The translations under genes were made by a program, and so were the position numbers. Shown here piece after piece: positions 6,661 through 27,674 of a stretch of DNA of 64,000 bases. The notes under the pieces are model-generated. The model saw only the letters and a program-made list of their open reading frames with translations. It did no database searches and was not told the origin of the DNA. The stretch is from positions 1,089,243 through 1,153,242 of the forward strand of contig NZ_CP047935.1 of the NCBI RefSeq assembly GCF_014279995.1. Reading direction: 5' to 3'. Position 1 is the first letter of the stretch. The number at the start of each line of letters is the position of its first letter. This stretch comes from Synechococcus sp. BIOS-E4-1 (GTDB lineage Bacteria > Cyanobacteriota > Cyanobacteriia > PCC-6307 > Cyanobiaceae).

Positions 6661-6673
6661 AAGTTTACTCATC

Positions 6674-6704: not shown

Positions 6705-6746
6705 CCTTCAATCACCCCAAACAGCCCACAAATCAGCCCCAAATTG

Positions 6747-6791: not shown

Positions 6792-6811
6792 CCTCTGCAG
6801 CACACCGTTGA

Positions 6812-6838
6812 TATGACTGCTGAACAGATCTGCTACCC
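6812..6838 (+). promoter_or_regulatory. -10 box of the truncated precursor
   Basis: CGTTGA then TATGAC (6812-6817), then 21 nt to the ATG at 6839; the leader ends CTGCTACCC. The box deviates from TATAAT at two positions. Confidence 0.45.
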
Positions 6839-6931
6839 ATGTCAGAAGAACAACTCAGAACTTTTATTGAAAAGGTGCAAAGCGACACCAGCCTTCAAGA
6901 GAAACTGAGAGCTGCTAAAGCTCATAGCTAA
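6839..6931 (+). pseudogene. truncated Nif11 leader gene
   Basis: Thirty codons starting MSEEQLRTFIEKVQSD, closely matching the first third of the neighbouring leaders, then a stop after KAHS. The rest of the leader, the Gly-Gly site and the core are missing. Promoter and upstream repeat are preserved, so this is probably a recently decayed duplicate. Confidence 0.75.
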
Positions 6932-7124
6932 ATGTATTAGGCTATAGGGCTGAAGTGGGGCCGCAGAAAGTTAAATCTTTTAATCATTCAACACACTCAA
7001 CAATAGTCTGAAGTTTATAAAACCTGAATGAACTTTTAGTTTTAAATGGTCAGATTTTATTGGCGGTTATTCGCGAATCAAATACATTCAGTTCTCTTGT
7101 AATCCTAGGCTACCCTGCGGACGA

Positions 7125-7424
7125 CTAAATGTTTGGCTTCTTTTTTGCGGGTCCATGATCATGTAACCGCATTATGACAGGTGTTGTGCACTGATTTGCA
7201 CCATTCAAGTTGGCTGTCTTCCCTCCGGCCACTGCCTCTAATTCCTCGGCAGATAGTTCTGACATTTTTGATTGGAATGCTGAAAGAAGATCCTCAGCAC
7301 TGACTTGAATCCCAAAGTTCGCAGCAAGTTCAACAGCCTCTTCCGGAGTTGTGGCTGCTGTAAGAGAGTCCCTGAATTCAGGATTCGTTGTTAAGGTGTT
7401 CAAGAGATCTTCTTGGGCTGACAT
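7125..7424 (-). CDS. Nif11-like leader RiPP precursor (second leader type)
   Basis: 99 residues. A different leader subtype from its neighbours (MSAQEDLLNTLTTNPEFRDS) but with the same ending LSAEELEAVAGG. The 31-residue core begins KTANLNGANQC and has one Cys, several Thr, a His-Asp-His stretch and a basic tail (PAKKKPNI). It is the only intact precursor on the minus strand of this island and is related to the decayed copy at 7758-7915. Confidence 0.8.
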   Translation of the reverse strand: MSAQEDLLNTLTTNPEFRDSLTAATTPEEAVELAANFGIQVSAEDLLSAFQSKMSELSAEELEAVAGGKTANLNGANQCTTPVIMRLHDHGPAKKKPNI

Positions 7425-7757
7425 GATAAAACAATGGCTTATATAAATCGATCATACAGATTGAGGAATTCACTGCGTCAAGACTTAAACAATATCAACA
7501 CGATACTTGTATCTATTGTATTTGTGACTCATGTACTGCAGTAGTTGTTTCGCCTTCGCCTGAAAAGCTTATGAACAAAGATAAGAATTTGAAACCCTTG
7601 CGTTGAGCTCGGATGAATCAATCTATCTCATTAAATCAATGGAGATTCGACGCTCCCCCATTGCAAGGCAAGCGTATTGAGGCCGGAAGGCGAATTAGTT
7701 TGCTTGCAAAAATCCAAATGTTTACGGGTGTCTAAGTACCACCAAAGATATCTACAT
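7425..7757. other. spacer with no supported gene
   Basis: AT-rich and contains the promoter region of the minus-strand precursor. A plus-strand frame at 7677-7871 is antisense to the decayed precursor and lacks domain character. Nothing else seen. Confidence 0.4.
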
Positions 7758-7915
7758 CTAAAAGACATTTGGCGGTATAAGGCCTACTTGCGTTCCCAAA
7801 GCATTGTTTACCTTGTTGGGTGCGCAGCCGTAATTTTTGCCTCAGCTAACAGCATCCAATTCTTCCTCTGAGAGCTCTGACAGCTTTGATTTGAATGCCG
7901 TTCGCAGCTCATTAC
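7758..7915 (-). pseudogene. decayed Nif11-like precursor
   Basis: The minus strand reads RNELRTAFKSKLSELSEEEL then DAVS and a stop where the Gly-Gly site should be. The frame continues with GKNYGCAPNKVNNALGTQVG and ends after PPNVF. The leader matches the gene at 7125-7424 (FQSKMSELSAEELEAVAGG). The Gly-Gly codons appear altered by a one-base insertion plus a nearby one-base deletion, and the leader N terminus is lost. It is too degraded to be detected as an open frame. Confidence 0.65.
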
Positions 7916-8690
7916 GTCAAATAACTGGGGTTTGCTGCTTTTGATGAAGAGAACGTTCAGACCCAGTTCCTAAGACATGTGGACTTCATTGAGGTGCTCG
8001 ATTAAGACGGGAACCCTTTCCCCGATCCTGCACCCGTCCCTGAGTGAATCGCGCCTGTTGTCCGTACGCTGCGGACTTTGGATCTGACTTATTTGCTGAC
8101 TTTCGCGCTTATGTCCAAACAAGGCTTAATGGCGCTGTAGTCGTTTCCATGAAAGGAGGCCGCCCCTCCGGTTGGAAGAGACGGCCTAGCTCGTTCGTTC
8201 GCGCATGGTTTCACTCCATCACGTCGGGATGAAAGAAGGAGTGCGAAGTAACTGGCTGCGGCGTCCCTGGGGCCATGACGTCCAGAGGTGGGGCTGATGC
8301 GGTTCCGGGGCACCTGTGGCGATGCAATGGAGTGTCGATCGACGTGGCGCACCTGATGACTGCCTGTCGAAGGACCAGCCTCACGGATGGGTGGAAACTG
8401 TTGGAGCAGGGGGCCGTAAAGTCAGAAGACTTCTGGGATCTGGTTTGGTGGAGTGTCGGCTGTCATCAGCGCCTCCGATCTCGATACATATAGTTTTGTC
8501 GCCCGCAACCGCAAAGGCAATGAGCATGAAGGCGCATTGCCTTTGCAGTGGTTGAGACCGAGAGTTGGAACTGCGTGGACATGATCCGACGCCACCTATT
8601 GATGAGTGGTTACAAGCTTCTCTTGTCTGAGCTGATCCATGCGGGCTTTTAATCACCGGATCAGCACCTTGCCTTCATGGGGCTGAGGGC
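7916..8690. other. region without a convincing gene
   Basis: About 775 bp at the right edge of the RiPP island. Several overlapping frames exist on both strands (8044-8232 plus, 8275-8493 plus, 8089-8352 minus), none with recognisable domains. The frame at 8275-8493 has the best protein character in its second half. A strong hairpin lies at 8511-8546. Confidence 0.35.
8511..8546. other. strong inverted repeat (RNA hairpin candidate)
   Basis: Perfect 12-bp arms GCAAAGGCAATG and CATTGCCTTTGC with a 12-nt loop. The outer bases CAACC and GGTTG can extend the stem. No T-tract follows, so it is not a standard terminator; a structured RNA or a protein-binding site is possible. Confidence 0.5.
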
Positions 8691-8915
8691 ATGGGCCTGC
8701 AACTCCAGTCTGCCGACTTCCTGCATGACGACGGCCTCACCTATTGCATCAGGCGTGAGTTGTTGGATCAGGACTTCACGATCTACGAGAAACGAGATGG
8801 TGTATGGGTCGATTGTGGCCTCGATCAAGCTGTGAAGGATCTCAATTTCGCTGAATTCAAGCGTCTTGGATTGCTGATCAAAACGATTATGGACGCCGAT
8901 CGTTGGATCGCATGA
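8691..8915 (+). CDS. small hypothetical protein
   Basis: 74 residues, soluble, beginning MGLQLQSADFLHDDGLTYCI. Composition and codon use favour this strand over the antisense frame at 8661-8921. No signal peptide or family recognised. It converges on the ribokinase gene. Confidence 0.55.
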   Translation: MGLQLQSADFLHDDGLTYCIRRELLDQDFTIYEKRDGVWVDCGLDQAVKDLNFAEFKRLGLLIKTIMDADRWIA

Positions 8916-8976
8916 AGCCATGCTCTGCTCTCTTTTGAGTTTCTACTGATCAAGAGTGGAATTGATCTCCAGAGCA

Positions 8977-9879
8977 TCAGTCAAGTTGCTTTCGATGCGG
9001 AATGGATGACTGCGCACCTTGCACTGTGACGCAATGTTCAGCTGCACGGCAAGCGGTGTTGATCGCTTCGCTGATCTCGTTGCCGTTACTGAGTCCTGCA
9101 ACGAGATATCCTAAATACGTATCTCCAGCTGCAGTGGTGTCAACAGCAACCACATCCCTGGCTTCGTAGGTGATGATTTCTTCGCTGTCGGGTAGCGATA
9201 CGACTCCTCCTTGGGAGCCCTGAGTTTTAACGACGATGGCGTTCGGACATTTATTTTTTAAATTCTGCATCTGATCGCCGCTGTCGCCGCCAAGTGCTTG
9301 AGCTTCGACTTCATTGACCACCAACAGACCAATGCGACTGATGTCAAGTGTCTGGATTATATTGGAAATGGGTGATGGATTCAGGCAAACAAACATCCCC
9401 CGTTCAATTGCTGTATTCAGGATATGTGTAATTTCACTGGTTTCGTTCTGAATCATCAGAATCGAGTCTTGATCAAATTTTGAGAGAGTCTTTTCAATTT
9501 CTTGTTTGGTGATGTTTTGATTAGCGCCACCAAAAAGAACGATGGTGTTTTCTCCGGAGCTGTCCACCTGGATCACGGCATGACCTGTGACGCCGTCTGA
9601 GATCACGACATTGCTGGTGTCAATCTGATCGTTTTGCAGACCAGACAACATCCATTCTCCGTCATGACCTATTTTTCCTGCATGGTGTACACGTCCGCCT
9701 GCACGAGCTGCAGCCAATGCTTGATTGGCGCCTTTGCCTCCAGGAAAGATTTCTAGCGACTTGCTGTTGATTGTTTCTCCGGGAGAAGCGATTTCTTCGA
9801 CCTGATAAACATAATCAATATTTAAAGAGCCGTAGCAAATGATTTGCGAATTTTTCAGCCTATGGATTTGACTTTTCAT
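8977..9879 (-). CDS. rbsK: ribokinase (PfkB family)
   Basis: 300 residues, normal length. It should phosphorylate D-ribose to ribose 5-phosphate. N-terminal GSLNIDYVYQV and the substrate-binding PGGKGANQALAAARAG (about residues 46-61) are ribokinase signatures. The C-terminal anion-hole motif is present as DTTAAGDTYLGYLVAG (about 248-263), with the catalytic Asp in GD. It starts 9 bp after the transporter gene, indicating an operon for sugar uptake and phosphorylation. Other PfkB sugar kinases are possible, but the GGKGANQ form favours ribose. Confidence 0.85.
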   Translation of the reverse strand: MKSQIHRLKNSQIICYGSLNIDYVYQVEEIASPGETINSKSLEIFPGGKGANQALAAARAGGRVHHAGKIGHDGEWMLSGLQNDQIDTSNVVISDGVTGHAVIQVDSSGENTIVLFGGANQNITKQEIEKTLSKFDQDSILMIQNETSEITHILNTAIERGMFVCLNPSPISNIIQTLDISRIGLLVVNEVEAQALGGDSGDQMQNLKNKCPNAIVVKTQGSQGGVVSLPDSEEIITYEARDVVAVDTTAAGDTYLGYLVAGLSNGNEISEAINTACRAAEHCVTVQGAQSSIPHRKQLD

Positions 9880-9888
9880 TTTTTGATT

Positions 9889-10875
9889 TTATCCCTGAGA
9901 TGCTGCGTTGGCAAGCAGAGTCAGTCCAGCGATGTAAAAGGCGAAAAGAGCAATTAAGTATTTGCCGGATCCTGTCGCGCCCTTGAATTCCTTCCAGGCA
10001 AATAGGCCCCATGCGGTTGCCATCAGGGGAGCTCCCTGGCCGAAGGTGTATGCAACGGCTGCCCCTGCGCGAGTCGACGCCAGGTAAAAACTCATTGTGC
10101 CTACAGCCCATATTATTCCTCCTAATACACCTCCGCTATGATGAGCAGCAGGTTGCTTTGTGAATGGAGTTCGATCATCAGTTCTTGTGGGGATGATGGG
10201 GTTCTTGATGACATATGGGAAAAGAAGTATGGATGAAGCAATGATGCCCACTCCCATCATTGCAAAGGCTCCAAATACATCAAGAGATGCTTCACCAGGT
10301 AAATAAGAGAAGGTTACAAGTGGAGACCACAGTGACATCAGCAACCCGCAGATCAGAGCAATAACAAGTCCTTTAGGCTTTTGATCTGTGCTGGCGGTTT
10401 TGATGCATCCATAGGCCAGAGACGCCGAGATCACCGCCAGAGCCATCATGATCATTCCAGCTGAGAACAGCGGAAGGTAACCCTGAGGATCAATCATATA
10501 GTTCAGAATTCCACCGAGAATTGTTGCAATGCCAATTGAGATGGGAAATGCAACTGACATGCCGGCGATTTCGATTGCTGCTACAAGCAGAAAATTCGCA
10601 ATATTGAATATGATGCCTCCAATCAGAGCGTAGGCGACATGTTTGAAGTCTGCATTGGCGATGTTTTCAAGGAAAGATTTGCCTGTAGGTGTACTGCTTC
10701 CTGCAAGAAAGCCCATTAAAAATGCTGATAATGTGACACCGATGGAGTAGTCGAGATAAAAATATTCAAATCTGATTTTGCCTGCCAGTTTTTGTGTGTT
10801 TGCCCATGAGCCCCAGCACACCAGGGTCAGGATCATCATTGCGATGATCACTGAATAGCTTTGATTGGCGAGCAT
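9889..10875 (-). CDS. GRP/DMT-family sugar transporter (probable ribose or glucose permease)
   Basis: 328 residues with about ten membrane helices. The start CWGSWANTQKLAG and the FEYFYLDYSIGV stretch are typical of the glucose/ribose (RbsU/GlcU-like) porter branch of the drug/metabolite superfamily. These are single-polypeptide secondary transporters. Tight coupling to ribokinase downstream suggests ribose as substrate; that assignment is inferred from context. Confidence 0.75.
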   Translation of the reverse strand: MLANQSYSVIIAMMILTLVCWGSWANTQKLAGKIRFEYFYLDYSIGVTLSAFLMGFLAGSSTPTGKSFLENIANADFKHVAYALIGGIIFNIANFLLVAAIEIAGMSVAFPISIGIATILGGILNYMIDPQGYLPLFSAGMIMMALAVISASLAYGCIKTASTDQKPKGLVIALICGLLMSLWSPLVTFSYLPGEASLDVFGAFAMMGVGIIASSILLFPYVIKNPIIPTRTDDRTPFTKQPAAHHSGGVLGGIIWAVGTMSFYLASTRAGAAVAYTFGQGAPLMATAWGLFAWKEFKGATGSGKYLIALFAFYIAGLTLLANAASQG

Positions 10876-11260
10876 TGTTCATATTCTTTTCCATTCTTTA
10901 CTGTATTGTCGGTTTGCGGCTCTGTCCAGTCTCTATCACTGCTGAAGTGCTCGATGTCACTTGAAGGGGTATTCGCTGCAGTGGCTGCTGTTGTCTGTCA
11001 TCTTTTCTTGTTCAAAAGTTTATTGATCAGATATGTGGTCTTGTCTGGTTAGACTTTGCAGAGACTTGCACTGAGCAAATTAAAACAGTCAGATGTGTTC
11101 GAGTTATTGATCGTTTTTGTCAGAGTGATTGAAGATTGCTTTGTTCTGTTGTTGTCGATGCATCGATTGGTTGAGACGATGTCAATCCGGTTCAGTTCAA
11201 GCACACTGTTTGTGATTGGTCTTGCTGACTGCCGGAGATCCTCCTGCGCCGGTTCCGTTT
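10876..11260. other. intergenic region
   Basis: About 385 bp, T-rich, upstream of the transporter-ribokinase pair and downstream of the P450. It presumably holds the operon promoter. No operator or RNA gene was recognised. Confidence 0.35.
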
Positions 11261-12562: not shown

Positions 12563-13420
12563 TCAGGGCTGGGGGGCAGGTTCTGTCGTTGATGGCCGTC
12601 TGAAGACGCGTGAACTGAGAATCAGGGCGATCAGGAATCCGAGGAACTGCACCATCACCACGGAGGGCCCTGACGGCAGGTTGGTGAGTCCGGATGCCAG
12701 CAAGCCAAGCAGGGCACAGGTGCCTCCCAGGATCGAAGAGACAAACACATAGAGCGGGAAACGACGACAGAGCAGACGGCCCGCACAGGATGGAATCACG
12801 ACAAAGGCGCTGATCAGCAGCACGCCAACCGCCTTGATCGACACCGCCACAACCACGGCGAGCAGAACGATGAAGGCCAGCCGGTGCCATCGGGTCTGGA
12901 CACCGACAGCACCAGCAAGATCCTGATTCAGGGTCAGCAACACCTGTGCTCGCAGGCTCAGGCTCAGATAGATCAGTGCTGCCGCCAGCAGCATGCCGAT
13001 CACGATCAGGTCCAGACCGCTGACCCCGAGAATGTCTCCAAACAGCAGCTGGCGAATCCCGCCCCGATAGCTCTCCACCTGGCTGAGAAACAGAATCGCT
13101 GCTGCCAGTGAGGTGGAATAGACAATGTTGAGCAGTGCATCCGTGGGGAGAGAGCTTCTCTCCACCAGCTGATTCACCAGGATGGCGAACAGCACCGCAA
13201 AGGGGATCAGAACCAGTGTGGGATTCACGCCGATCAGGATTCCAATCGTGATGCCAAGCAAGGCGGAGTGCCCAAGAGCATCGCTGAAAAAGGACAGTTC
13301 CCTGAGCACGGCAACACTGCCCAGCAACCCCCCAAGCGCACCGGTGAGCAGGCCGCCGATCAGCGCGCGCTGCATGAAGGGTTCGGCGAGGACAAGCGCC
13401 AGTGCCTGAGTGTCAACCAT
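12563..13420 (-). CDS. znuB: zinc ABC transporter permease
   Basis: About 285 residues from the ATG at 13420. An upstream in-frame start at 13465 would overlap the ATPase gene further and is less likely. Multiple membrane helices with the ABC-3 family signature (LGHSALLGITIGILIG; IKAVGVLLISAFVVIPS). It forms the membrane channel for metal import with the ATPase and binding protein upstream. It overlaps the znuC end by 8 bp, indicating translational coupling. Confidence 0.85.
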   Translation of the reverse strand: MVDTQALALVLAEPFMQRALIGGLLTGALGGLLGSVAVLRELSFFSDALGHSALLGITIGILIGVNPTLVLIPFAVLFAILVNQLVERSSLPTDALLNIVYSTSLAAAILFLSQVESYRGGIRQLLFGDILGVSGLDLIVIGMLLAAALIYLSLSLRAQVLLTLNQDLAGAVGVQTRWHRLAFIVLLAVVVAVSIKAVGVLLISAFVVIPSCAGRLLCRRFPLYVFVSSILGGTCALLGLLASGLTNLPSGPSVVMVQFLGFLIALILSSRVFRRPSTTEPAPQP

Positions 13421-14183
13421 GACATTGGTGTCTGTAAGGCACCATGTTGGGCCCGTACAGATCAAGGAGTCGCTCAGGCGTCAGGGTGTGATCGGGTGAA
13501 CCACTGCAGCAGAGGCGGCGATTGAGCCCGAGCACCAGGTCGCTGCTGCGACGCACCATGTCGAGATCGTGAGAGACGTGCAGAACGGTCCATCCCTCCT
13601 GACGTCGCAGCTCCAGCAGCAGTTGCTGAAAGCGTTCGTTGGACGGCACATCAAGGCCTGCCTGGGCTTCATCGAGCACCAGCAGCTGACGGGCCCGCAC
13701 GACGCAGAAGGAAAGCATCACGCGTTTGATCTGTCCTCCGGACAGTTCACTGAGAAGACGGTTCCTCAGGTCGATGCAACCGGTGCGATCCAGTGCCCTC
13801 TCAACGGCGGCCTTGCGTTTGCGGTAGTGATGCCAGGGCCAGCGTGGTCCTGGGGGATCAAATCCGAAACCGACGAATTCGGCCACCGTCAGGGGAAAAC
13901 GTCCCTGCAGGGCCAGACTCTGCGGAACGTAGGCAATCTGAGATCGGATGGCACCGGGGAGGTCGCCGTTGGCGGAAAGCTTTTCTCCCAGAATCTGAAC
14001 CGTTCCTTGCTTTCTTGGCAGCAGCCCGAGCAAAGCGGCCACCAGAGTGCTCTTGCCGGCGCCGTTGGGTCCAACCACGGCGGTCTCGCTCTCACTCGGG
14101 AGTTCGAACGAGACCTGTTCAACGGCGAGGCGCCCTGACCGTTCAACCGACAGATCGCTCACCACCACCACCGGGTTGGGCAT
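13413..14183 (-). CDS. znuC: zinc ABC transporter ATP-binding protein
   Basis: About 256 residues. Walker A GPNGAGKST (about 37-45), signature LSGGQIKRV (about 147), Walker B LLVLDEAQAGLD (about 168-179; Ala-Gln replaces the more usual Pro-Thr) and switch His in HVSHD. It energises metal import through ZnuB. It starts 6 bp after the znuA stop and overlaps znuB. The order znuA-znuC-znuB is that of a zinc uptake operon. Confidence 0.88.
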   Translation of the reverse strand: MPNPVVVVSDLSVERSGRLAVEQVSFELPSESETAVVGPNGAGKSTLVAALLGLLPRKQGTVQILGEKLSANGDLPGAIRSQIAYVPQSLALQGRFPLTVAEFVGFGFDPPGPRWPWHHYRKRKAAVERALDRTGCIDLRNRLLSELSGGQIKRVMLSFCVVRARQLLVLDEAQAGLDVPSNERFQQLLLELRRQEGWTVLHVSHDLDMVRRSSDLVLGLNRRLCCSGSPDHTLTPERLLDLYGPNMVPYRHQCHG

Positions 14184-14189
14184 CAAACG

Positions 14190-15221
14190 TCAGTCCCCAA
14201 TGGCTTGAGTCAGATTGTTGACGTTGGAGCGCATCACCTCAAAGTAAGTTCCAGGCTTCTTGGCGGACTCTGCTGAGCCGGTCTCGAGAGGGTTGAACTC
14301 AACGATATTCACTCCAAGATCTTTCGCCAAGGCATTGAAGGAACGGTTGCCTTCCTGAGGTTCAGTGAGCAGGGCTTTCAGTCCTGATTCCTTGACCTGA
14401 GTGGCGACCCTTTGCAGATCGGCAGGGCTGGGATTCATCTCCGGCAGGTCAACCAGAAATTCCGCTTTAAGGGAATAACGGTTGGCGAAATAGGTGGCGA
14501 AGTCGTGGAAGGCCACAAAAGTCTTGCCGCTGTAAGGCTTGAGCTTGGCAGTGAACTCCGTGTTCAGCTCCTTGAGCTTGGCGGTGTATTGGTCGGCATT
14601 CTTCCTGTATCCCTCTGCGCAACTGGGATCGGCTTTGACCAGGCCGTCTCTGATGTTCTCGACCTGCTGGGCAGCGCGAACCGGGTCGAGCCAGATGTGG
14701 GGGTCATATTCACCATGGCTGTGTCCATGGCCGTGATCGTGGCCGTGATCGTGGTCATCATCATCGTCATGGTGTTCACCCTCATGGTGTTCACCGTCGT
14801 GATGATCATCACTGTGCTCGTCATGATCATCGTGGCCGCCACCGGCCGCTTTGATCGTTTCCACGCCCTTGCTGGAATCGATCACAACCAGATCCTTGTT
14901 GTCAGCGGAGTCGATCAGGTCGTCGAGGAATTCCTCCATCTCCAGTCCATTTTTGACCAGAACATTCGCTCCGCTGAGATCCGTCAGGTCGGAGGGTGTG
15001 GCCTGAAAATCATGGGGCCCCAGATTGGGCGGGATCAATGATGTGACCTCCGCGCAGTCGCCGGCCACCGCTTCCGTGAACAGTGTGATCGGAAGGAAAG
15101 TGCTGACCACTTTCACGCCTTTGCCCTGGCTTGTCTCGTTGTTGATTGCATTTTGTGTCCCGCAGGCCACCAGGCCGATCAGGAGAGGGATGGCGCTCAG
15201 GCGCGAAAAAACAGAAGCCAT
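14190..15221 (-). CDS. znuA: zinc ABC transporter substrate-binding lipoprotein
   Basis: 343 residues. Signal with lipobox (LIGLVAC, about residues 14-20). Metal ligands of the ZnuA type are visible: His in GPHDFQATPSD (about 89), His in DPHIWLDP and His in AFHDFATYF. Between them is an expanded His/Asp loop (about 128-170) made of repeated HDDH and GHGH units, typical of zinc-specific members and thought to collect zinc. It is transcribed from a Zur-like site 65 bp upstream, shared with the divergent cobW. Confidence 0.92.
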   Translation of the reverse strand: MASVFSRLSAIPLLIGLVACGTQNAINNETSQGKGVKVVSTFLPITLFTEAVAGDCAEVTSLIPPNLGPHDFQATPSDLTDLSGANVLVKNGLEMEEFLDDLIDSADNKDLVVIDSSKGVETIKAAGGGHDDHDEHSDDHHDGEHHEGEHHDDDDDHDHGHDHGHGHSHGEYDPHIWLDPVRAAQQVENIRDGLVKADPSCAEGYRKNADQYTAKLKELNTEFTAKLKPYSGKTFVAFHDFATYFANRYSLKAEFLVDLPEMNPSPADLQRVATQVKESGLKALLTEPQEGNRSFNALAKDLGVNIVEFNPLETGSAESAKKPGTYFEVMRSNVNNLTQAIGD

Positions 15222-15349: not shown

Positions 15350-15865
15350 ATGTATTAAAAAGTACCCGTCACGATTTTGACCGGCTATCTGGGTTCTGGA
15401 AAGACAACTTTGTTGAACAAAATACTAAGTGAAGAACATGGCAAACGTATTGCCGTGATTGAGAATGAGTACGGGGAGGTAGGCATTGATCAAGGGCTTG
15501 TGATCAATGCTGATGAAGAGGTTTTTGAGATGTCCAATGGGTGTATCTGTTGCACAGTTAGAGGGGATTTGATCCGGGTTCTGGGGAACCTGATGAAGCG
15601 ACGCGACAAATTTGATTACGTCCTCGTCGAAACCACCGGACTTGCGGATCCTGGCCCGGTTGCCCAGACCTTTTTCATGGATGATGAAATCCGGGACGAA
15701 TTCACCCTTGATGGAATTGTCACGCTCATTGATGCTGCCCATATTGACCAACAACTTGAGCGGAGCAATGAGAGCTCTGAACAAGTGGCATTCGCTGATG
15801 TGCTGATTCTCAACAAGTCTGATCTTGTGCCTGAAGAATCACTGGTGAAGCTGGAGTCCCGCCTC
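15350..15865 (+). pseudogene. cobW/COG0523 metal-chaperone GTPase, 5' half (interrupted)
   Basis: N-terminal GTPase domain of a CobW-type protein. Walker A TGYLGSGKTTLLN, the metal-binding CXCC motif in NGCICCTVRGDL, the DxxG-region ETTGLADPGPV and the NKSD base-specificity motif are all present. The natural start is the ATG at 15350 (AGGA five bases upstream), but codon 3 is TAA, apparently a nonsense mutation. A TTG at 15377 could only restart inside the first beta strand. The homology stops exactly at 15865, where a mobile element begins; the remainder resumes in frame at 26853. Family members under Zur control allocate zinc during starvation. Confidence 0.85.
15862..15865. other. attL core of inserted element
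   Basis: CCTC at the point where cobW homology (GAGTCCCG before it) changes to reverse-strand mutY sequence (GGCGATCC after it). The same CCTC occurs at the right junction, 26849-26852. A serine integrase would need only 2 bp of identity inside it. Confidence 0.75.
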
Positions 15866-16054
15866 GGCGATCCAGCAGTCCAGGACATCAAGATGCTCGT
15901 GGGGTTCAGGCCACCTGCCGTCCTTGGTGAACATCCACGGCTTGAGCGCAGGGTCCTTCCGACCATGAACTGCCCACCAGGCCAACAGGGATTGACTGAG
16001 CTCAGCCGCTAGAGGACTGAAGTCGCGATGCTCAGCGCTGCTTCGTTGACCCAT
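15866..16054 (-). pseudogene. mutY: 5' fragment of mutY (A/G-specific adenine glycosylase) at element end
   Basis: Sixty-three codons reading MGQRSSAEHRDFSPLAAELS ... LLAWWAVHGRKD ... KPWMFTKDGRWPEP ... DCWIAE, the N terminus expected of cyanobacterial MutY. At 15866 it breaks off and runs into cobW, giving a chance ending of seven residues (AGLQLHQ). In the circular form it would continue EVM before diverging. Its ATG overlaps the stop of the serine recombinase (TGATG). Interpreted as a gene-restoring segment carried by the element. A full mutY must be elsewhere if the cell has one. Confidence 0.75.
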
Positions 16055-16827
16055 CAGGCAGCGACCCCGGCCTGGTCACTGCCCAGCAGCTTTCCCGACA
16101 AACCCAAGCGCTGGAGGATCCGACCGATCTGGGCCGGTGCGAGAGGACGCCCTGACTTACTGAGCTTGCCAACACATGCAAGCGCATCAGCCATGGCCCT
16201 GTAACTCAAGCCTGCACGAACCATTGGCTCGAAAACTCCACGCAGACCCTCCGCCTCAGCAATGGCCTTTTGCTTGCGCTCTGAAGCCCGCTCAGCCGCA
16301 CCTTGCCGGTATCCCCCCAGGCGAACACCTCTGGCCTTGGCCGCGGCCAACGCTTCCTTAGTGCGCTCGCTGATCCGACGTGCTTCGAACTCAGCCACGC
16401 TGGCCATCATCGTGAGCACCATCCGACCAGCACTGGTGGTGGCATCAATGTCTGGGAGGTCGCAAAAGACGAAACCACCCATCCCGTTCTTCTCAGCCTC
16501 ATTGGCGAGCTTTAAAACAAAGCCAGCGTCACGAGCCAGGCGGTCGATCTTGGCGACAGCAATGACGGCCTTCTCCTCACGAGCCTGAGCCAGAGCCGCA
16601 GTCAACTGAGGGCGGTCGTTCTTGCGACCGCTTTCGACCTCCACGAATTCAGCAGCGATCACAGCCCCCCGCTCAGAGGCCATGGCTTCCACCTTGGCCC
16701 GTTGCGCTTCAAGGCCCAGTCCGGAATGTCCTTGGCGATCTGTACTGACCCGGTAGTAGGCAAGCCAACGAACCGGACTCAGAGGGCGTTCAGGCAAAGA
16801 CAACACGCATCGAGCCGCTTGTTCCAC
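16054..16827 (-). CDS. small serine recombinase (resolvase/invertase family)
   Basis: 257 residues from a GTG. The N-terminal catalytic domain has YYRVSTDRQGHSGLGLEAQR with the nucleophile Ser at about 28, followed by AKIDRLARDAGFV and the ERTKEALAAAKARGVRLGG hinge. A C-terminal helix-turn-helix region (about 195-245) would bind DNA. It lacks the long domain of large integrases, so resolution of multimers or inversion is more likely than integration. It overlaps the mutY fragment by one base pair in the TGATG arrangement. Confidence 0.8.
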   Translation of the reverse strand: MEQAARCVLSLPERPLSPVRWLAYYRVSTDRQGHSGLGLEAQRAKVEAMASERGAVIAAEFVEVESGRKNDRPQLTAALAQAREEKAVIAVAKIDRLARDAGFVLKLANEAEKNGMGGFVFCDLPDIDATTSAGRMVLTMMASVAEFEARRISERTKEALAAAKARGVRLGGYRQGAAERASERKQKAIAEAEGLRGVFEPMVRAGLSYRAMADALACVGKLSKSGRPLAPAQIGRILQRLGLSGKLLGSDQAGVAA

Positions 16828-17458: not shown

Positions 17459-18388
17459 TCAGTTGCCCACTGCCTGGTTTGCCGACAACCCCCGAATCAA
17501 AAGGTCGACGTTGTGACGCTGCAGCTTCAGCAGTGATGAAGCTGGTCCATCTTCAGTTGAGAGAGAGTCCACATAGAAGGTCCCGCCAAAACGAGCACCA
17601 GATTCGGCTGCTACTTGTCTCTGATTTTTGTCACTTACTGTGCTTTCACAGAAGATCGCTGGGATCTGACGATCGCGCACGGTGTCGATCAAACGCGCCA
17701 TGCGTTTTGGTGTTACCTGGCTTTCAGCATTTACAGGCCATAGGTAAGCCTCATCAAGGCCGTAATCGCTGGCTAGATAGGTAAAGGCTCCCTCGCAACT
17801 CACCAACACACGGCGCTTTTTTGGAAGCGTTGCGAGTGCGGCCCGCAACTCCTGGTCGAGCTGATTCAGTTTCTGCTTGTAGGAGGAGGCGTTGGTAGCG
17901 AATTCATCAGCTCCTGCCGGATCCAGCTCGCGGAACGCTTGCTCGAGGCGATCCACGTAGGCCATCGTGCGCTGGGGCGACATCCAGGCATGGGGATTGG
18001 GCTTGCCCGCGTAGGCGTCCTCTTCGATCAGCAGCGGCTCCATGCCATCGGAGAGGGTCAGGGTGGGGATGTTGCCGGCGCTGGCGGTGAATTTCCTCGC
18101 CCAGAGCTCCAGCCCCAGCCCGTTCTCCACGATCAGATCAGCATCACTGGCCCGTTCGATGTCACTGGGCGTGGGCTGGTAGCCATGAATTTCCGACCCC
18201 GGCTTGACGATGGATCGAACGGTCAGGCGATCTCCCGCCACGTTGCGGGCCAGGTCGGCCAGCACCGTGAAGGTGGTGAGTACAACAGGCTTTCCAGTGT
18301 TGGCTTGGTCTTGGTTGGCGCCTTGGCGACATCCACTACTGATCAGCGCCAGCAATACAAGGGTTAGACCTGCGCCGATGCGAAGCAA
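17459..18388 (-). CDS. MntC-type manganese (or iron) ABC substrate-binding lipoprotein, orphan
   Basis: 309 residues. Lipobox LISSGC (about 15-20). The four ligand positions fit the manganese-type cluster A-I proteins: His in EIHGYQPTPSD, His in NPHAWMSP, Glu in CESTVSD and Asp in YVDSLS. There is no His-rich loop, in contrast to the znuA at 14190. No permease or ATPase gene accompanies it, so it must use components encoded elsewhere. A TTG start is used. It is cargo of the inserted element. Confidence 0.8.
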   Translation of the reverse strand: MLRIGAGLTLVLLALISSGCRQGANQDQANTGKPVVLTTFTVLADLARNVAGDRLTVRSIVKPGSEIHGYQPTPSDIERASDADLIVENGLGLELWARKFTASAGNIPTLTLSDGMEPLLIEEDAYAGKPNPHAWMSPQRTMAYVDRLEQAFRELDPAGADEFATNASSYKQKLNQLDQELRAALATLPKKRRVLVSCEGAFTYLASDYGLDEAYLWPVNAESQVTPKRMARLIDTVRDRQIPAIFCESTVSDKNQRQVAAESGARFGGTFYVDSLSTEDGPASSLLKLQRHNVDLLIRGLSANQAVGN

Positions 18389-18633: not shown

Positions 18634-19269
18634 ATGAATGCTTTGACGAAAGCCAGCCCCCTGCTGCGGGCTGGTGTGATTTCCACAGCGGGATTAGTCG
18701 GCCTTTCCCTGTTCAGTCCAGCCCATGCCCATCACCCCTTCGGGATGGGAGACAGCACAGACCTTTCGGCTCTGCAGGGATTGTTGAGTGGCATTGGTCA
18801 CCCCCTGTTGGGACCTGACCATCTGCTGTTTCTGCTGGCGATCGCCTTAATCGGCCTGCCGCGACCTCGCACATGGGTGCTCCCCTTGCTGGCCGCTGGC
18901 CTAGGGGGGAGTGTTCTGTCGCAGTTCATCCCCCTGCCGGATGCCGTGGCTCCCTGGGCTGAGGCGCTGGTGTCTCTCACCCTTGCGGCAGAGGGGTTGA
19001 TGGCTCTGTTCGCCATCCCTTCATTTCTTGTATTGCCACTAGTGGCCCTGCACGGTTTTCTGCTTGGCAGCACGATTGTGGGTGCCGAACCCACCCCTCT
19101 GGCGACCTATTTCCTGGGTCTTCTGATTGGCCAAGGCGCATTGCTGCTGGTGGTGACCAGTTGGTCCCAGTCCTTGCTGGAGCGCATCGGTGAACAGGGG
19201 CAACGCCTTGGTGCCGGCATCTGGATGGGCATCGGCATGGCCTTTGCCTGGGTGGCCCTGATCGACTGA
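18634..19269 (+). CDS. hupE: HupE/UreJ-family cobalt (or nickel) transporter under B12 control
   Basis: 211 residues. Signal-like first segment, then HAHHPFGMGD with metal-binding His residues right after it, and the family motif GHPLLGPDHLLFLLAIAL. About six to seven membrane helices. HupE/UreJ proteins carry nickel or cobalt; a B12 riboswitch directly upstream indicates cobalt supply for cobalamin. It ends before a strong terminator. Cargo of the inserted element. Confidence 0.85.
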   Translation: MNALTKASPLLRAGVISTAGLVGLSLFSPAHAHHPFGMGDSTDLSALQGLLSGIGHPLLGPDHLLFLLAIALIGLPRPRTWVLPLLAAGLGGSVLSQFIPLPDAVAPWAEALVSLTLAAEGLMALFAIPSFLVLPLVALHGFLLGSTIVGAEPTPLATYFLGLLIGQGALLLVVTSWSQSLLERIGEQGQRLGAGIWMGIGMAFAWVALID

Positions 19270-19336: not shown

Positions 19337-20903
19337 ATGAAAATTTTCAAGAAACTGCTGGTTGCTCCGGCCGCCCTGGGCCTTCTGGATCCTTTGGCTG
19401 CCGGTGCGACTGAAGTCAACGTTGCCGGTGTCGCTGACTACGCCTCAAGCTCTTCAAGGAGCAGCCTCGAGCAGGTCACCAGCATCACCCAGTTTTCTGA
19501 CGTTGATCCGACGGACTGGGCTTATCAGGCTCTGAGCAACCTGATCGAGCGCTACGGCTGCGTCGCTGGCTACCCCAACGGCACCTACCGCGGCAACCGG
19601 GATGACCCGCTTTGAAGCGGCCGCACTGCTGAACGCCTGTCTCGATCGCATCACCGAAGTGACCGACGAGCTGAAGCGCCTGATGAAGGAGTTCGAGAAG
19701 GAACTCGCCATCGTCAAGGACCGTGTGGACGGTCTGGAAGCTCGCGTGGGTGAACTGGCAGCAACCCAGTTCTCCACCACCACCAAGCTCTCTGGCTTGG
19801 CGACTTGGGTTGTCGGAGCGAATCGTTTCATGGGTTCCGCGACCCCGCTTCGCGCAGATAGCAATGCCGAGTTCGGCGGGACAGTTTTCAATTACGACCT
19901 GCAGTTGGCCCTGGAGACATCCTTTACCGGCAAGGATCAGCTGACGACCGTGCTGCGTTCTGGCAATTTCGACGGAGACGGCAACGTTTTCGGCAGTGGG
20001 GGGCCGTCGGGTTTGGCCACCCTGGATACCGCGTTCCAGGAGGGTGATCAACCGAATCAACTGGTGATCGACAAGCTCTTCTATTCCTTCCCCATTGGGG
20101 AGTCCCTCACGATCACCGCAGGTCCCTACGTCGGGCAGGAAGACATGCTCGCGATCTGGCCGAGCGTGTATCTCAGTGATCCGATTCTCGATGCGGTGAC
20201 GCTCAATGGAGCACCTGGCGCTTACAACAAGAACCTGGGGGCAGGGGCAGGCATCTCGTGGTCTGATTCCAGTGGCTTCCGTGCTTCCGCTAACTACGTT
20301 GCGGCCAATGGGGCAGCCAGCGACACGCGCGAAGGTGGTTTCGCGACTGACAACGCAGCGGGTACCGGCACGGTTCAATTGGGCTGGGAGGGTGAAGGTT
20401 GGAATCTCGCCGCGATCTACTCCCAGATCCAGAACGGGCATGACTTGATCGCCTATGCCACCCCGTTTACGCAGGAATCGCTGAGCCCCCGAGGTGTCAC
20501 TCACGCCTTTGGTCTGGGTGGATCCTGGGCACCGGAAGAGAGTGGTTGGGTTCCTTCGGTGAGCGTCGGTTGGGGATTCAACAGCAGTGAGACCGACAAC
20601 AGCGGTGAGGTGAGCAGCAGTCAGTCCTGGACGGTGGGACTGGAGTGGAACGACGTGTTCATGGCGGGAAACAATGCAGGTATGGCTGTGGGCCAACCCG
20701 TCTTTGCGACCGATCTGCGCGGTGGCGATACCCCGGCCGATGGTCAGTTCATCTGGGAGTGGTGGTACCAGTTCCAGGTGACCGACAACATCAGCGTCAC
20801 CCCGGCGCTGTTCTATCTGTCGCGACCTATGGGCGAGCTCACACCGGACGGTTCAACCTTCCAGCAACTGGGCGGTCTGATCAAGACGACATTCGTCTTC
20901 TGA
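19337..20903 (+). pseudogene. SLH-domain outer-membrane porin (SomA/iron-uptake-porin type), frameshifted
   Basis: The first frame (19337-19615) encodes a signal peptide and the SLH domain (DVDPTDWAYQALSNLIERYG, then GYPNGTYRGNR). The rest of the SLH domain, a coiled coil (about LKRLMKEFEKELAIVKDRVD) and the OprB-like barrel ending in KTTFVF continue in another frame from 19602. Family members read GNRAMTRFEAAALL; here two bases are missing between Arg and Met (CGGGATGACC). No ribosome binding site or promoter fits in the 10 bp after the hupE terminator, so it is probably a pseudogene. A sequencing error could explain the frameshift but not the missing leader. Confidence 0.8.
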
Positions 20904-21037: not shown

Positions 21038-21523
21038 TTAGTTCGAAAGATCTTCAAGTAGCCCTGCGACCCCAAGAGCCGTCGCCTCGATGTTCATGGC
21101 ACCCTCCAAGGCCTTGCAAGCCGCGGCCATTACAGAAGAAAGCTCACGCCCTTGGAGAACGGTGCCGGCTTCCAGGTGATGCCTGACGCTGCGCTCGACC
21201 ATCGCCAGTAGCTCCTCAGCTCGATCTCCAACGGAGCGAGCTCGTGCGAGCTGCTCTTGACGGAACGTCTCAAGCTGGTGTTTGTAGCGCTCAAGATCCT
21301 CCTTCGTTCGTGCTTCTGATGCCTGCTTAAGCATCCCTGAGTCGTAGTCAGCCAGACGCTCGACCCAGTTCCACTGTTCTCCTCGTCGGCGCAGGGTCGA
21401 TTCGGAACACCCCACAAAATCTGCTGTCTGACTGAACTGGCGAGTGGGGCCGAAGTCTCGATGGAGCAGGAGCTGCTCGAAGGCATCTGCGGGCTCACCA
21501 GGGAGTTGTGGGAAAGAGTTCAT
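21038..21523 (-). CDS. terminase-small-subunit-like DNA-binding protein
   Basis: About 161 residues from the ATG at 21523. The N-terminal helix-turn-helix region RQFSQTADFVGCSESTLRRR followed by QWNWVERLADYD is typical of phage small terminases and related mobile-element proteins. Long helices follow (about 90-130). In phage satellites a small terminase redirects packaging of helper phage particles to the satellite genome. That role is inferred; a plain DNA-binding regulator is possible. Confidence 0.55.
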   Translation of the reverse strand: MNSFPQLPGEPADAFEQLLLHRDFGPTRQFSQTADFVGCSESTLRRRGEQWNWVERLADYDSGMLKQASEARTKEDLERYKHQLETFRQEQLARARSVGDRAEELLAMVERSVRHHLEAGTVLQGRELSSVMAAACKALEGAMNIEATALGVAGLLEDLSN

Positions 21524-22064
21524 CGACTTGCGCGCTTTCCAACAGGCTTCCAACGGGCTTCAAGCAGCGTCATCGAGCTTCATCCGGAAGAACCAAACCC
21601 TTCGGATCGGTGGTGACTTTGTAGCTGCTCAGAGTGATCTAGCGGGCAGCATTCCCAGCGCAGTGGACGTCCTCCAGTCGCCTCCCACTGCCTCTCGATG
21701 AAGGCTCTACGCCTTCTCTCCATCCATCCTGAGGATCTATTGGGTTGGCTTTTGTAGGAGGAATCAAGATCGGTTCTAAAGGAAGCCAATAGAGAGATGT
21801 AACTACTCCAGGCTTCCGGTTGTTATCGATATTCCGTATGAACCTGAACAAGCGCGGGTAACTTGAAGGGTTGGCATTTCGAGGTGGTTGTCACCGCTTC
21901 GGAACACTTGCAACGAGAACAACAACTGCTCTCTTGCCACTTCTGTGGCGAACTTAAACAACCTCAGGAGTAGCTCCCTGAGCCGGATAGCCACCTCGTT
22001 TGGGTTCATTGGCCCTGTGTGTGCGAGGTGGTCGATCCGGACCTTCCACACACACACAAACCCA
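21524..22064. other. possible replication origin region
   Basis: About 540 bp between two divergent genes with no convincing coding frame. The 8-mer CGAGGTGG occurs at 21880-21887 and 22024-22031, and its inverse CCACCTCG at 21991-21998, all within 190 bp of the replication-protein start. Short repeats next to a Rep gene are consistent with Rep-binding iterons. A frame upstream of the Rep ATG (from 21888) overlaps these repeats and was not taken as coding. Confidence 0.35.
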
Positions 22065-24776
22065 ATGCGCAAGAACTTTCAGGGTCACAGGCCCCACTCA
22101 ACTAAGCAGCTCAGAGCCGAGCTAGCTATCCACCACCTGATCGATCAAGACGATTACGTCCGCGGGACCATCACCCTCGGTGCTGATGAAGGCTGGCGTG
22201 AAGCGCTCGACCGCAAGGCGCGGGAACGTATAAGAGCGGCCAAGAACAACCCTGACCTACGCCCTAACGAGGTCGCATGCGAGGAACGATCCATCACTCG
22301 CAAAACGAACCACAGGTTCCGAGAAACTCCGCCCGAGAACTGGAACATCTACAGCGTCGGGATGACAAACAAAGGCGTACTCCTGAGCGGCCTGCACTTT
22401 GCAGGTCAACGCAAGCACCCCAGCATCCGCACCCGAGAGAAGGGTGAAGTTCGTTTCGACAGCACCGGCACCATGGTGAAGGTCTACCTCCCGCCGCTGA
22501 CGTGGGAGTACGCCATGCACCTGCTGGATCATCACGGGTTCATCTGCACTCGAGAGGAGTACACCCCGGAGATGGCATGGCAGTTCATCTTCAGCAACCC
22601 GGCGGTCCCCATCTGGGTCGAGGAATCGGCCCTCAAGGCGATTTCGGCGACCTCCCATGGTCAGCTCGCCGTCGGCATTAACGGCATCAACTCCGCAGGA
22701 CAGAAGACCCGCTCAGATCGCCTACGTGTGCCCCTGCGGGAGCTCGCCAAGGGTGGCCGTCGGATGATTGTCAGGTTTGACAACGGCAGCAACTCAGAGC
22801 GCGCTGCGCAACGTCTGGCAGGGCAGCTAAAGCGAGCCGGAGCTGATGCCAACTGGTTCACCTGGCTCGATCCAGGGAAGGCCAAGACGGACGACTACTT
22901 CGCTGCGAAAGGGAAGGCGCTTGTCGCCGGGACTTTCGACCGCTCAACGGATCAAACCGACAGTTTCAATCCGAACGAGGACGAGAAGGGCCACTACGCG
23001 CGGCTCAAAGGCAGCTGGCGCACAACCACCATCGATCGCGAGTTCGAACCGATGGACCTGGTCAGGGCACAGAAGAAAAGCCGTGTGATCGCCCTTGAGG
23101 GACCCACAGGGACCGGGAAGACGAAGGCCTCAGTTGGTGCCATCGCCCTGATGGAGCAGGCCCTTGGGCGCAAGGTCATCGTGATGGGCCTGTATCACCG
23201 CGCGTCGCTGGTTCATAAAGGCTCTAGTGAGTTCGGTGTCAGGGATCTCAGCTCGCCCATCGGCACGTTTGAACGTGAACGGGGCGCACTAAGGGACGGT
23301 CTGTTCTGTTGCTGTGAATCCATCAAGAAGGACAGCGGCGAATGGGACCTCTTGAAGTGGAGTCATGAGCTGGAGGAGAACCTCAGGCCAGCCGTGCTGT
23401 TCCTTGATGAGCTCACCCAGGCGGCTTTCCACCTGTTGCTGGCCGGCACCGACGCCATGACGAAGGTGAGACGCGAGGCCATCAAGGCCATTGAACGGTT
23501 GATCCGCAACCCAGAGGTCACCGTCATCGCTGCTGAGGCTGGTATCGGCGACATCGAGCTGGAATGGCTGCAGGCGCTGTCTGGCGTGCAACCCCACGTC
23601 ATCAATACGACCTTCCGCCGGCGGTCCGAGCTCTTCTGTGGCGACGCCACTGCCGACAACATCGACAAGCTCCAACAGCTGTGCGGACAGACCATCGATC
23701 GAGGTCAACAGGTCTGGCTCTCGATGGGAGAGGCCGAATCACTGAAGAAATTCAGTGCTCCTTTCCCTCGCAGCTTCCTGATCCATGGCGAGAACTCCAA
23801 GACACTGGAAGTCGCTGAGTTGATGTCCAACACCAATTCCGTCGCAGGTCAGTTCTCCCTGGTCGGATACAGCCCGTCCGTGGTGTCTGGCATCTCATAC
23901 GAGGCCTCAACCGTTGGCATCGCTGCATGTGTGCAGCAGTTCGCGATGGGCCCTCAGGACGCCATGCAGGCCGTCGCCAGGGCACGCAGCGCAGAGCGGC
24001 GCATCATGCTGTCGCCTGTCAGGACACCGAAGGCGACCACTGGAACTGGGCGGACATCACCAGAAGAGGTCAGTCGTGCCAGGTTCGCTGCGATCGATCC
24101 GACGATGCAGGAGCTGTACCGGGAGCACCTATCGAGCGTTGACCCGGCGACCGTGCGCTATTCAGTCGCCCTTGAAGCTCGAGTCAATTACGAGGCCATC
24201 CATAACGATCACGTCCTCGCCTGTCGCTTGAAGGACCAGGGCTACACGCTCCGGTCGTTCGATGAGCTGGTCAGCGATAACGCCGTTGTCATTCCGAAGG
24301 CTCAGCGGGATAAACAGACAAAACAGGATGAACTGAGCCGTCGGACACAGCTGATCCATGAGGTCATGACTGGTCAGAAGACAATTGTCCAGGCCAGCTC
24401 AGAGGCCAACAGGGAAACCAAGGAAGGCACCTGGGTAGACCTGGGAGCAGTAGACCCCAGCAATGCCTATGAGTGGCTACTGCGCGTCAGGGTGCATGAC
24501 CTGGTCGCTGCAGGGTCATTCACTGTCGATAGCGCTGAGTTCCGCGCGATGGCAGCAGAGGTGCAGAGCCTCGACAAGCACCAGGCACGGCAGCTGCGAG
24601 ACGTCCTCGGTGGCCGCGTCACCATCCCTGGACCAGACGACGACGTCCCCGCAACGTTCGCCAAGGCGTTGCTCAAGGTGGCGGGGTTCACCACCCAGAG
24701 GCAGAGGTTCCGGGTTGATGGCGTCCGTACCTACCGCTTTGAGGTGGTCGCGTTGGAGCTGTCCCCGTTCTTGTAG
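22065..24776 (+). CDS. CyRepA1/DUF3854-type plasmid replication protein (Toprim-helicase)
   Basis: About 903 residues from the ATG at 22065. The N-terminal half holds a DUF3854 Toprim-like region (PIWVEESALKAISATSHGQL; RMIVRFDNGSN). The C-terminal half has Walker A LEGPTGTGKTKAS (about 345) and Walker B VLFLDELTQ (about 447), like superfamily 2 origin-binding helicases. This layout is that of the CyRepA1 family of cyanobacterial plasmid replication proteins. Finding it inside an integrated element suggests the excised circle can replicate. Family naming rests on recalled domain architecture. Confidence 0.7.
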   Translation: MRKNFQGHRPHSTKQLRAELAIHHLIDQDDYVRGTITLGADEGWREALDRKARERIRAAKNNPDLRPNEVACEERSITRKTNHRFRETPPENWNIYSVGMTNKGVLLSGLHFAGQRKHPSIRTREKGEVRFDSTGTMVKVYLPPLTWEYAMHLLDHHGFICTREEYTPEMAWQFIFSNPAVPIWVEESALKAISATSHGQLAVGINGINSAGQKTRSDRLRVPLRELAKGGRRMIVRFDNGSNSERAAQRLAGQLKRAGADANWFTWLDPGKAKTDDYFAAKGKALVAGTFDRSTDQTDSFNPNEDEKGHYARLKGSWRTTTIDREFEPMDLVRAQKKSRVIALEGPTGTGKTKASVGAIALMEQALGRKVIVMGLYHRASLVHKGSSEFGVRDLSSPIGTFERERGALRDGLFCCCESIKKDSGEWDLLKWSHELEENLRPAVLFLDELTQAAFHLLLAGTDAMTKVRREAIKAIERLIRNPEVTVIAAEAGIGDIELEWLQALSGVQPHVINTTFRRRSELFCGDATADNIDKLQQLCGQTIDRGQQVWLSMGEAESLKKFSAPFPRSFLIHGENSKTLEVAELMSNTNSVAGQFSLVGYSPSVVSGISYEASTVGIAACVQQFAMGPQDAMQAVARARSAERRIMLSPVRTPKATTGTGRTSPEEVSRARFAAIDPTMQELYREHLSSVDPATVRYSVALEARVNYEAIHNDHVLACRLKDQGYTLRSFDELVSDNAVVIPKAQRDKQTKQDELSRRTQLIHEVMTGQKTIVQASSEANRETKEGTWVDLGAVDPSNAYEWLLRVRVHDLVAAGSFTVDSAEFRAMAAEVQSLDKHQARQLRDVLGGRVTIPGPDDDVPATFAKALLKVAGFTTQRQRFRVDGVRTYRFEVVALELSPFL

Positions 24777-26791: not shown

Positions 26792-26848
26792 GGAGAGGCT
26801 CGCCCGATACAGAAAAGCTAGTCACCTATGCCGCAAAGTGCCGCATCA

Positions 26849-26852
26849 CCTC
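26849..26852. other. attR core of inserted element
   Basis: CCTC where element sequence (GCATCA before it) switches to cobW (CGTGACATGAAC after it). The element-side GCATCACCTC is the reverse of a mutY stretch GAGGTGATGC, matching the mutY fragment at the left end. Confidence 0.75.
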
Positions 26853-27674
26853 CGTGACATGAACACGATGGCCAGTGTGGTGCTCAGCACCCAGGCTGAA
26901 GTACCGATCGAGACTGTTCTGAACCTGAGTGCCTTTGACCTTGATCAGATCCTGGCGCGTCGTCCCACATTCCTGGAGCCGGAATACCCCTTTGAATGGA
27001 CCGGTGTTTACCAACTTGAGCCAGGTCACTACGAGATGACTCTCGAAGAGGGCCCTGATCCTGAGATGTCTTTGGTTGCCATCCCAGGGCAGAAAGCTGA
27101 TGAAGATGCCCTGAAGCAGAGTGCAGAGCAGTGCGTTCGGTTGTTCGCCCAGTCAGCTCAATCCCTCAAGCCAGGTGATTCGATTGCTCCCAATCAGCAT
27201 CTCAGTCTTGAGCTGGATTCAAAAGGCACGAAATCTTTTCTGTTCGATGTCAAGAGCGAAGAAACGATTGGTTTCTATGCCCAGCACACGGCCGAGGAGT
27301 TTGACCTGCGGATCGTCAAGGCGGGGCAATCAGTGAGCCCGGTTAAAGAGCGCATCTGGGTTGCAGAGCATGAGCATGATGATGAGGTCGGCTCAATTGC
27401 CATTGAGCGTGAGGGCAATGTTGACCCTGAAAAGCTCAATCAGTGGATCGGAACACTGCTGGCGGAAAAAGGGGTGGACATTTTCAGAACCAAGGGCTTC
27501 ATCAGCTATCAGAACGAATCACGGAGGGTTGTGTTTCAGGGCGTCCATATGCTGTTCACCGCTCAGCCTGGGGAGGAGTGGGGAGAAGCACCGCGCTGTA
27601 ATCAGCTCGTGTTCATCGGCCGTAATCTTGACGAGGCTCAGATGCGCAAGGACTTTGACCAATGCCTGATCTGA
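26853..27674 (+). pseudogene. cobW/COG0523 metal-chaperone GTPase, 3' half
   Basis: 273 codons continuing the interrupted GTPase in the same frame (left half ends LVKLESRL, right half begins RDMNTMASVVLSTQAEVP). It carries the linker and the CobW C-terminal domain (GVDIFRTKGFISYQ, FQGVHMLFTAQPGEEWG). An ATG at 26859 could give a separate protein, but it would lack all GTPase motifs. The stop overlaps the WD40 start by 13 bp, so loss of cobW translation may also reduce that partner. Confidence 0.85.

Follow-up and report, generated by a model that had tools for sequence, protein, structure and literature searches.

We propose that the large serine recombinase of a mobile element in Synechococcus sp. 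BIOS-E4-1 normally uses an attachment site (attB) that lies within mutY, and that the crossover falls in the four bases GAGG. The element's own site (attP) would carry a replacement for the 5' part of mutY, so that integration would give a chimeric but full-length gene. The copy that we analyzed would instead have entered cobW, as a secondary site, and broken that gene. We put the probability of this explanation, including the secondary site, at about 93%. Comparisons among related genomes show the site in mutY and the chimeric genes, which change over at GAGG; they also show that the swaps recurred in different lineages and that the mutY piece is under purifying selection. By the window, we mean the whole stretch of DNA that was analyzed (64,000 nucleotides).

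An insert in cobW that carries the start of mutY

The cobW gene of the window is split by an insert of 10,987 bp, with one copy of CCTC (GAGG on the minus strand) at each end (Table 1). These four bases are the only sequence that the two ends of the insert have in common. If the flanks are fused over one CCTC, they form a single frame of 436 amino acids, and nine of the 31 genomes in our sample of the genus encode a stop-free CobW (77-95% identity) that is continuous over the insertion point. Given the joined frame and the uninterrupted proteins, we conclude that the CCTC copies are the ends of the insert and that cobW was intact beforehand. This agrees with the original prediction, which was made from the window by itself, that the element jumped to a site in cobW that shares only CCTC. 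Because cobW is uninterrupted in these nine genomes, and none of the nine genes contains the mutY piece, we can rule out that the piece was already in cobW before the insertion.

Table 1. Features of the insert and of the interrupted cobW gene, by position in the window.
Feature	Position	Strand	Evidence or remark
cobW 5' GTPase part, including the CCTC core	15377..15865	+	Pfam cobW, E = 3.8e-57; joined frame; intact in 9/31 genus genomes
Left junction (P-B'), core GAGG common to element and cobW	15862..15865	-	GAG doubles as codon 64 of the piece
Replacement mutY 5' piece, 64 codons, ATG to GAG codon	15863..16054	-	last part is the putative P arm of attP
Small serine recombinase, resolvase/invertase type	16054..16827	-	Pfam Resolvase, E = 9.4e-35; PHROG DNA invertase
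Cargo: ZnuA-type zinc-binding protein	17459..18388	-	Pfam ZnuA, E = 6.7e-84
Cargo: HupE/UreJ-type membrane protein	18634..19269	+	Pfam, E = 3.4e-14
Cargo: OprB-type porin	19602..20903	+	Pfam, E = 9.9e-12
Small terminase subunit-like protein	21038..21553	-	PHROG 6299, E = 5e-12
Replication protein, DUF3854 and CyRepA1-like part	21888..24776	+	CyRepA1-like match is below the model's own cut-off
Large serine recombinase (integrase), 619 amino acids	24932..26791	-	Pfam Resolvase and Recombinase; PHROG integrase, E = 2.6e-51
Putative P' arm of attP	26792..26848	-	mutY frame carried over the P' arm would end at TAG
Right junction (B-P'), core GAGG	26849..26852	-	
cobW C-terminal part	26853..27674	+	Pfam CobW_C, E = 1.9e-27; joined frame; intact homologs

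At the left end of the insert, the minus strand from 16054 to 15863 encodes MGQRSSAEHRDF...LDVLDCWIAE, which is 64 codons ending at GAG|G. This piece is 78% identical to the genome's own MutY over residues 1-69 (E = 3.3e-35), which rules out a chance match. As predicted, then, the left end encodes a MutY N terminus that stops at WIAE. It had also been claimed that the right end continues like mutY from the core before diverging, and it does: the minus strand from 26852 to 26843 is GAGGTGATGC (the core continues as TGATGC), followed by divergence. The start of the mutY piece overlaps the stop codon of the small recombinase as TGATG.

The insert contains an integrase, a replication protein, and a packaging-related gene, which is the gene set used to recognize phage satellites. 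With its cargo and its resolvase as well, it looks like a satellite-like integrative element. The large recombinase matches PF00239 (E = 1.1e-13) and PF07508 (E = 1.4e-12), along with a zinc-ribbon match under the cut-off, and has no match among solved structures; its gene starts 57 bp inside the right core GAGG. The terminase-like protein is about 26% identical to terS of the cyanophages PSS2 and S-CBS2, and has no match in Pfam. There was no capsid gene among the insert proteins that were scanned (a subset of the open reading frames). As for a free or packaged form, none of the four insert proteins that were scanned against viral contigs (the recombinase, the replication protein, TerS, and the resolvase) had a confirmed relative there, and we saw neither a circular form nor excision nor a free element. 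Phage and plasmid records (56 and 29, respectively) contain recombinases only at under 60% identity and under 80% coverage.

The interrupted cobW adjoins a cluster that encodes ZnuA, an ABC ATPase, and an ABC-3 permease (12563-15221; Pfam). The ZnuA of the element is a second one, or zinc cargo within a zinc locus, which is perhaps a coincidence. Elsewhere in the window, the G+C content of 3001-11000 is 42-49% (54% at 8001-9000), which is below most of the window.

Might cobW be a regular second target of the element, instead of a rare secondary site? The cobW site does resemble the sites in mutY: it matches the consensus of mutY attB at 17 of 40 flanking positions, compared to a mean of 10.4 over the 528 GAGG sites of the window, and 15 of those 528 sites match as well as it does. 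However, the nine cobW genes found intact in the genus sample are all unoccupied, and we found no other recombinase of the group in cobW in the family genomes that we searched. We consider it improbable that cobW is a regular target, and we favor integration at a secondary site.

Related elements inside mutY

A search of 400 genomes of the family for the recombinase (E <= 1e-10) gave 32 that match. Close relatives are found in G197, G061, and G239 (96% identity), in G295 (91%), and in G235 (69%). There are two further relatives: in G319, residues 299-608 match at 93% on a short contig, and in G297 a decayed copy matches at 84% over 89 residues. Five loci with a close relative (69-96% identity) are completely assembled, and in all five the element is inside mutY. 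At each of these loci, a displaced 5' piece of host-type mutY ends at GAGG and abuts the recombinase, with 57-58 bp between GAGG and the start of the recombinase, as in the window. A full-length mutY lies 7.4-11.1 kb away, and its element-type 5' end gives way to host sequence at GAGG. The displaced pieces end in PYGIWIAE, PYGVWIAE, or AYGVWVAE; the restored 5' ends read VLECWIAE, VLDCWIAE, or VLECWVAE. The chimeric frame is intact at all five loci and also in G319 and G297.

These loci bear out the central claims of the original prediction, namely that the native attB lies inside mutY, that the element brings a replacement 5' end, and that related elements would be found in mutY beside an intact chimeric gene. 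We found no relative of the recombinase with at least 69% identity at another attB in the family genomes; for one of the seven relatives (G319), the site is out of view because the recombinase is on a cut-off contig. G319 also contains a resolvase along with its chimeric mutY. In G297, a displaced piece lies beside the decayed recombinase and the chimeric mutY is on another contig.

The most likely course of integration is that the recombinase joins attP (the mutY 5' piece as P, and then P') to attB in mutY. The crossover would be within GAGG, which comprises the codon for the catalytic glutamate plus one base, and the crossover dinucleotide is probably GA. (By alignment to solved MutY chains, the Glu of the GAG codon is chain residue 43, which we take to be the catalytic glutamate of known MutY enzymes.) The 5' end of the host's mutY would be left on P', immediately 5' of the recombinase gene, where it would be a dead fragment, and the rest of mutY would be fused to the element's 64-codon start to give a chimeric full-length gene. 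Presumably, the restored mutY is expressed from the element and the recombinase from the old mutY promoter. We infer from the sequences that this recombinase is the agent of the swap and that the chimeric MutY is active. In the window, attP would have recombined with GAGG in cobW instead.

The different origins of the two parts of the chimeric genes are visible in pairwise comparisons. G197, G061, and G239 share the same restored 5' end over 123 nt, but the 3' parts of these genes are 68-86% identical. By nucleotide identity, the displaced pieces resemble host lineages. The exception is G235, whose displaced piece is 70.8% identical to the 14 hosts tested and 74.1% identical to its own restored piece, although the 5' tree places it with hosts. 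In steps of 30 nt, the genome's own mutY (G000) and that of G271 match at 13/30 positions just before the core and at 27/30 and 30/30 after it; similarly, G075 and G034 match at 15/30 before the core and 30/30 and 30/30 after it. For two swapped genes (G239 and G061), the matches are 30/30 before the core and 27/30, 22/30, 19/30, and 13/30 after it. Conservation of the codons that follow the core blurs the step when it is viewed from the element side.

We read the mutY loci of 51 genomes and the window, and we built trees with 17 swapped and 14 unswapped genomes. (The core-pattern reading was also run on G089 and G231, where no core was found by pattern; other unswapped genomes were left out.) In the tree of 5' ends (38 rows and 123 columns), the 18 element-type ends group in a single clade (support 99/95), and all six displaced pieces group among the hosts; the bootstrap for this tree had reached 0.988 against 0.99, and so was not fully settled. 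In the tree of 3' parts (31 rows), the 17 swapped genes are scattered, with 11 state changes, at least 7 of which are forced by starred branches, and a single clade of swapped genes is rejected (AU p = 5e-7). This comparison shows that the apparent mutY swaps were repeated in different Synechococcus lineages. Because each change may be a gain or a loss, the count of 11, obtained with 14 unswapped genomes, need not equal the number of separate swaps.

The pattern C-W-(I/V)-A-E-V-M occurs in 17 of the 400 family genomes and in 7 of the 31 genus genomes, compared to 0 for a backwards control pattern. (Of the best 120 MutY matches listed from the protein collection, the W is preceded by Cys in 24, and three of those 24 are PFECW.) A recombinase of the group is present in 8 of the 17 genomes with a swapped mutY. 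There was no match to the recombinase near ten swapped genes, which we call scars: G000's own mutY, G273, G186, G279, G112, G054, G141, G075, G277, and G156. The stretches that we examined upstream of the scars were 7-14 kb for nine of them and 40 kb for G000.

The scar in G000 was unforeseen. A check that accompanied the original prediction shows that the genome has an intact mutY elsewhere (403 amino acids, from G000:C1:145978 on) in which GCCGAGGTGATG is unoccupied, but this gene seems to have had its 5' end swapped already. Its DNA similarity to the insert runs from the 3' end of the resolvase into the start of mutY and stops at ...GCCGAGG. Directly upstream is a decayed copy of the insert's resolvase (residues 171-253, with one internal TAG), and a decayed terminase gene lies 14-15 kb upstream; there is no remnant of the recombinase in the 40 kb upstream. 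Because of these decayed genes, and because the similarity ends at GAGG, this mutY carries the mark of an older element. Judging by these remnants, it is a scar, swapped by an earlier element of the same kind. G277 is the sister of G000 in the 3' tree and has a swapped mutY with an intact cobW, which indicates that the mutY swap predates the insertion in cobW. Between the decayed terminase and the decayed resolvase (L008 5165-19960, or G000:C1:131165-145960), three long TPR proteins are encoded, which contain sulfotransferase or methyltransferase domains. These are possibly cargo of the older element.

Element-type 5' ends might also have spread by ordinary homologous recombination of mutY alleles, without any site-specific recombinase. 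The ten scars, with no recombinase of the group in the adjoining stretches, would fit this. So would G231, which contains a rearranged tandem: a displaced piece adjoins the start of a recombinase, and mutY is of host type. The tandem consists of element remnants at mutY (L137), and the displaced piece, with its element-type start and host-type arm, suggests that copies of mutY recombined with each other. But in the profiled pairs the switch is at the core, to within the 30-nt steps, and the displaced pieces end there too. Also, resolvase-like sequence lies directly upstream of four of the ten scars (G000, G279, G141, and G156). Homologous recombination is thus a very unlikely source of the swaps, and we prefer site-specific integration in mutY.

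More distant recombinases offer another view of the site. In G128, a decayed mutY piece ends in ...TGGATTGCCGAGG and is succeeded by a P' unlike the other arms and by a recombinase with about 40% identity; this is independent support for GAGG as the limit of the piece. G128 has no readable restored mutY, and the 3' part of its mutY joins other sequence on two contigs. A second recombinase lineage (L076, in G128) may share the mutY target. Otherwise, the more distant recombinases are not in mutY: among 11 of their loci, searched for mutY at E <= 5, only the one in G128 (L020) has an adjoining mutY match better than E = 0.6. The few mutY matches with E of 2-4 at other such loci were taken as chance.

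The elements vary in their cargo. Three near-identical elements (L065 7893-10202, also L064 and L066) encode MerR, DUF305, and DUF411 proteins, which are presumably a metal-response cargo. The element in G235 (L068 5429-10360) encodes a 1643-amino-acid protein similar to Type ISP restriction-modification enzymes, or defense cargo (Pfam; type IIG/I models in PADLOC). G061 and G239 belong to different genera, and 9.64 kb of their sequence aligns at 98.3%.

The mutY piece as protein and as attachment site

Across ten pairs among five element-linked mutY pieces, dN/dS is 0-0.12, which implies that the piece is kept as protein by purifying selection. (In this set, G061 stands for the identical G197 and G239, and G235 was left out.) The piece could instead be passive baggage, gained once by imprecise excision or homologous recombination and with no role in integration or restoration, and in the window it restores nothing, as the element is in cobW; but this is hardly credible given this dN/dS, the intact mutY frames that the piece completes at the five complete loci and in G319 and G297, and its end at the crossover core.

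The mutY piece appears to double as half of attP, as its P arm. In all six attP (three of which have identical arms), the P and P' arms match each other inversely around the GA center of GAGG at 14-16 of 30 positions. Around five other centers the match is 4-11, and shuffled arms equal the score at the GA center in 0.02-0.8% of draws. Twelve host attB sites score 4-10 of 22 at the GA center, so some hosts are not clearly weaker than attP. Soon after the core, the displaced frame reaches a TAG in each of the six attP except that of G295 (three of the five are identical), and the recombinase gene is next.

VL(E/D)C is kept in all eight element-linked copies and is altered in five of the ten scars, as expected if the element retains the motif for DNA recognition. 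Other element lineages could also be the source of the altered motifs. A tentative idea, which we consider somewhat more doubtful than probable, is that the last codons of the piece serve both as MutY N terminus and as the P half of attP, and that this dual role accounts for VLEC in place of the usual PYGI before WIAE. The site in a swapped mutY would then be P-B' and a poor attB, and the host would be protected from further integration in mutY, even after the element is lost. If so, the window records a case of immunity: the swap in mutY came first, and a later element was diverted to a secondary site. The displaced pieces with a readable arm are all of host type (8 of 8, with no VLEC), which supports immunity weakly because swapped genes are rare in the background (17/400 in the family and 7/31 in the genus). 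This possible immunity of swapped sites could be tested directly in the mutY system.

Comparison with known systems

IntR, the integrase of the Rac prophage, is a tyrosine recombinase. Rac integrates in the 5' part of ttcA in E. coli, which retains the gene with an altered N terminus, and excision reverts the change (as described in PMC4632033). Among known systems, this seems to be the nearest precedent for a change of N terminus by integration: in both cases, the target gene is preserved with a new start (PMC4632033). The differences are that Rac is a lambdoid prophage with the excisionase XisR and the integrase IntR, and that four amino acids change (PMC4632033). The mutY element relies on a serine recombinase, its exchange covers 64 codons and ends with the GAG codon, and it is otherwise poor in phage genes.

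Serine integrases are usually reported to break coding targets. Those of streptococcal ICEs target rumA, mutT, hsdM, and traG, with repeats of 2-21 bp and documented secondary sites, and upon integration in rumA, this gene and that of the integrase swap their 3' parts; for 29 ICEs with serine integrases, every insertion is stated to disrupt genes (PMC4701971). The mutY element is like these ICEs in having a large serine recombinase, a coding target, and a secondary site, but its target is rebuilt in frame from the 5' side instead of disrupted. A survey of large serine recombinases describes conserved coding targets, which are disrupted, and diverse recombinases that hit a single gene (PMC10083194). 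The mutY element shares this site-specific aim at conserved coding sites, and the main text of the survey contains neither "restor" nor "mutY" (PMC10083194).

Tycheposons are cargo-carrying elements of marine bacteria that were first described in Prochlorococcus; their recombinase is of the tyrosine type, and a tRNA lies at their border (PMC10872708). The mutY element also carries cargo and is picocyanobacterial, and the portion of the tycheposon account considered here mentions neither "serine recombinase" nor "mutY" (PMC10872708). The insert is not a tycheposon, as it has a serine recombinase and there is no tRNA in the window. Mobile DNA is known in mutY of Acinetobacter baumannii, where a single insertion of AbaR4 was reported; the usual site of AbaR4 is comM, and the portion of that report considered here, unlike our case, mentions no restoring piece (PMC8158813). 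We found no mutY-restoring element in the literature that we searched (for mutY or marine Synechococcus with serine recombinase, prophage, or genomic island); this coverage was partial, so there may be an earlier description.

Restoration of a gene at integration is known. What is new here is the combination of a serine integrase with the 5' part of a repair gene, which is cut at the codon for the putative catalytic glutamate and regains its frame from a front part of foreign origin. Because the swaps are repeated across Synechococcus lineages, mobile DNA appears to have rewritten the start of a gene that affects the mutation rate, and to have left recognizable scars. The mutY element is also a natural case in which half of an attachment site must encode enzyme sequence, which bears on how serine integrases discriminate attP from attB.
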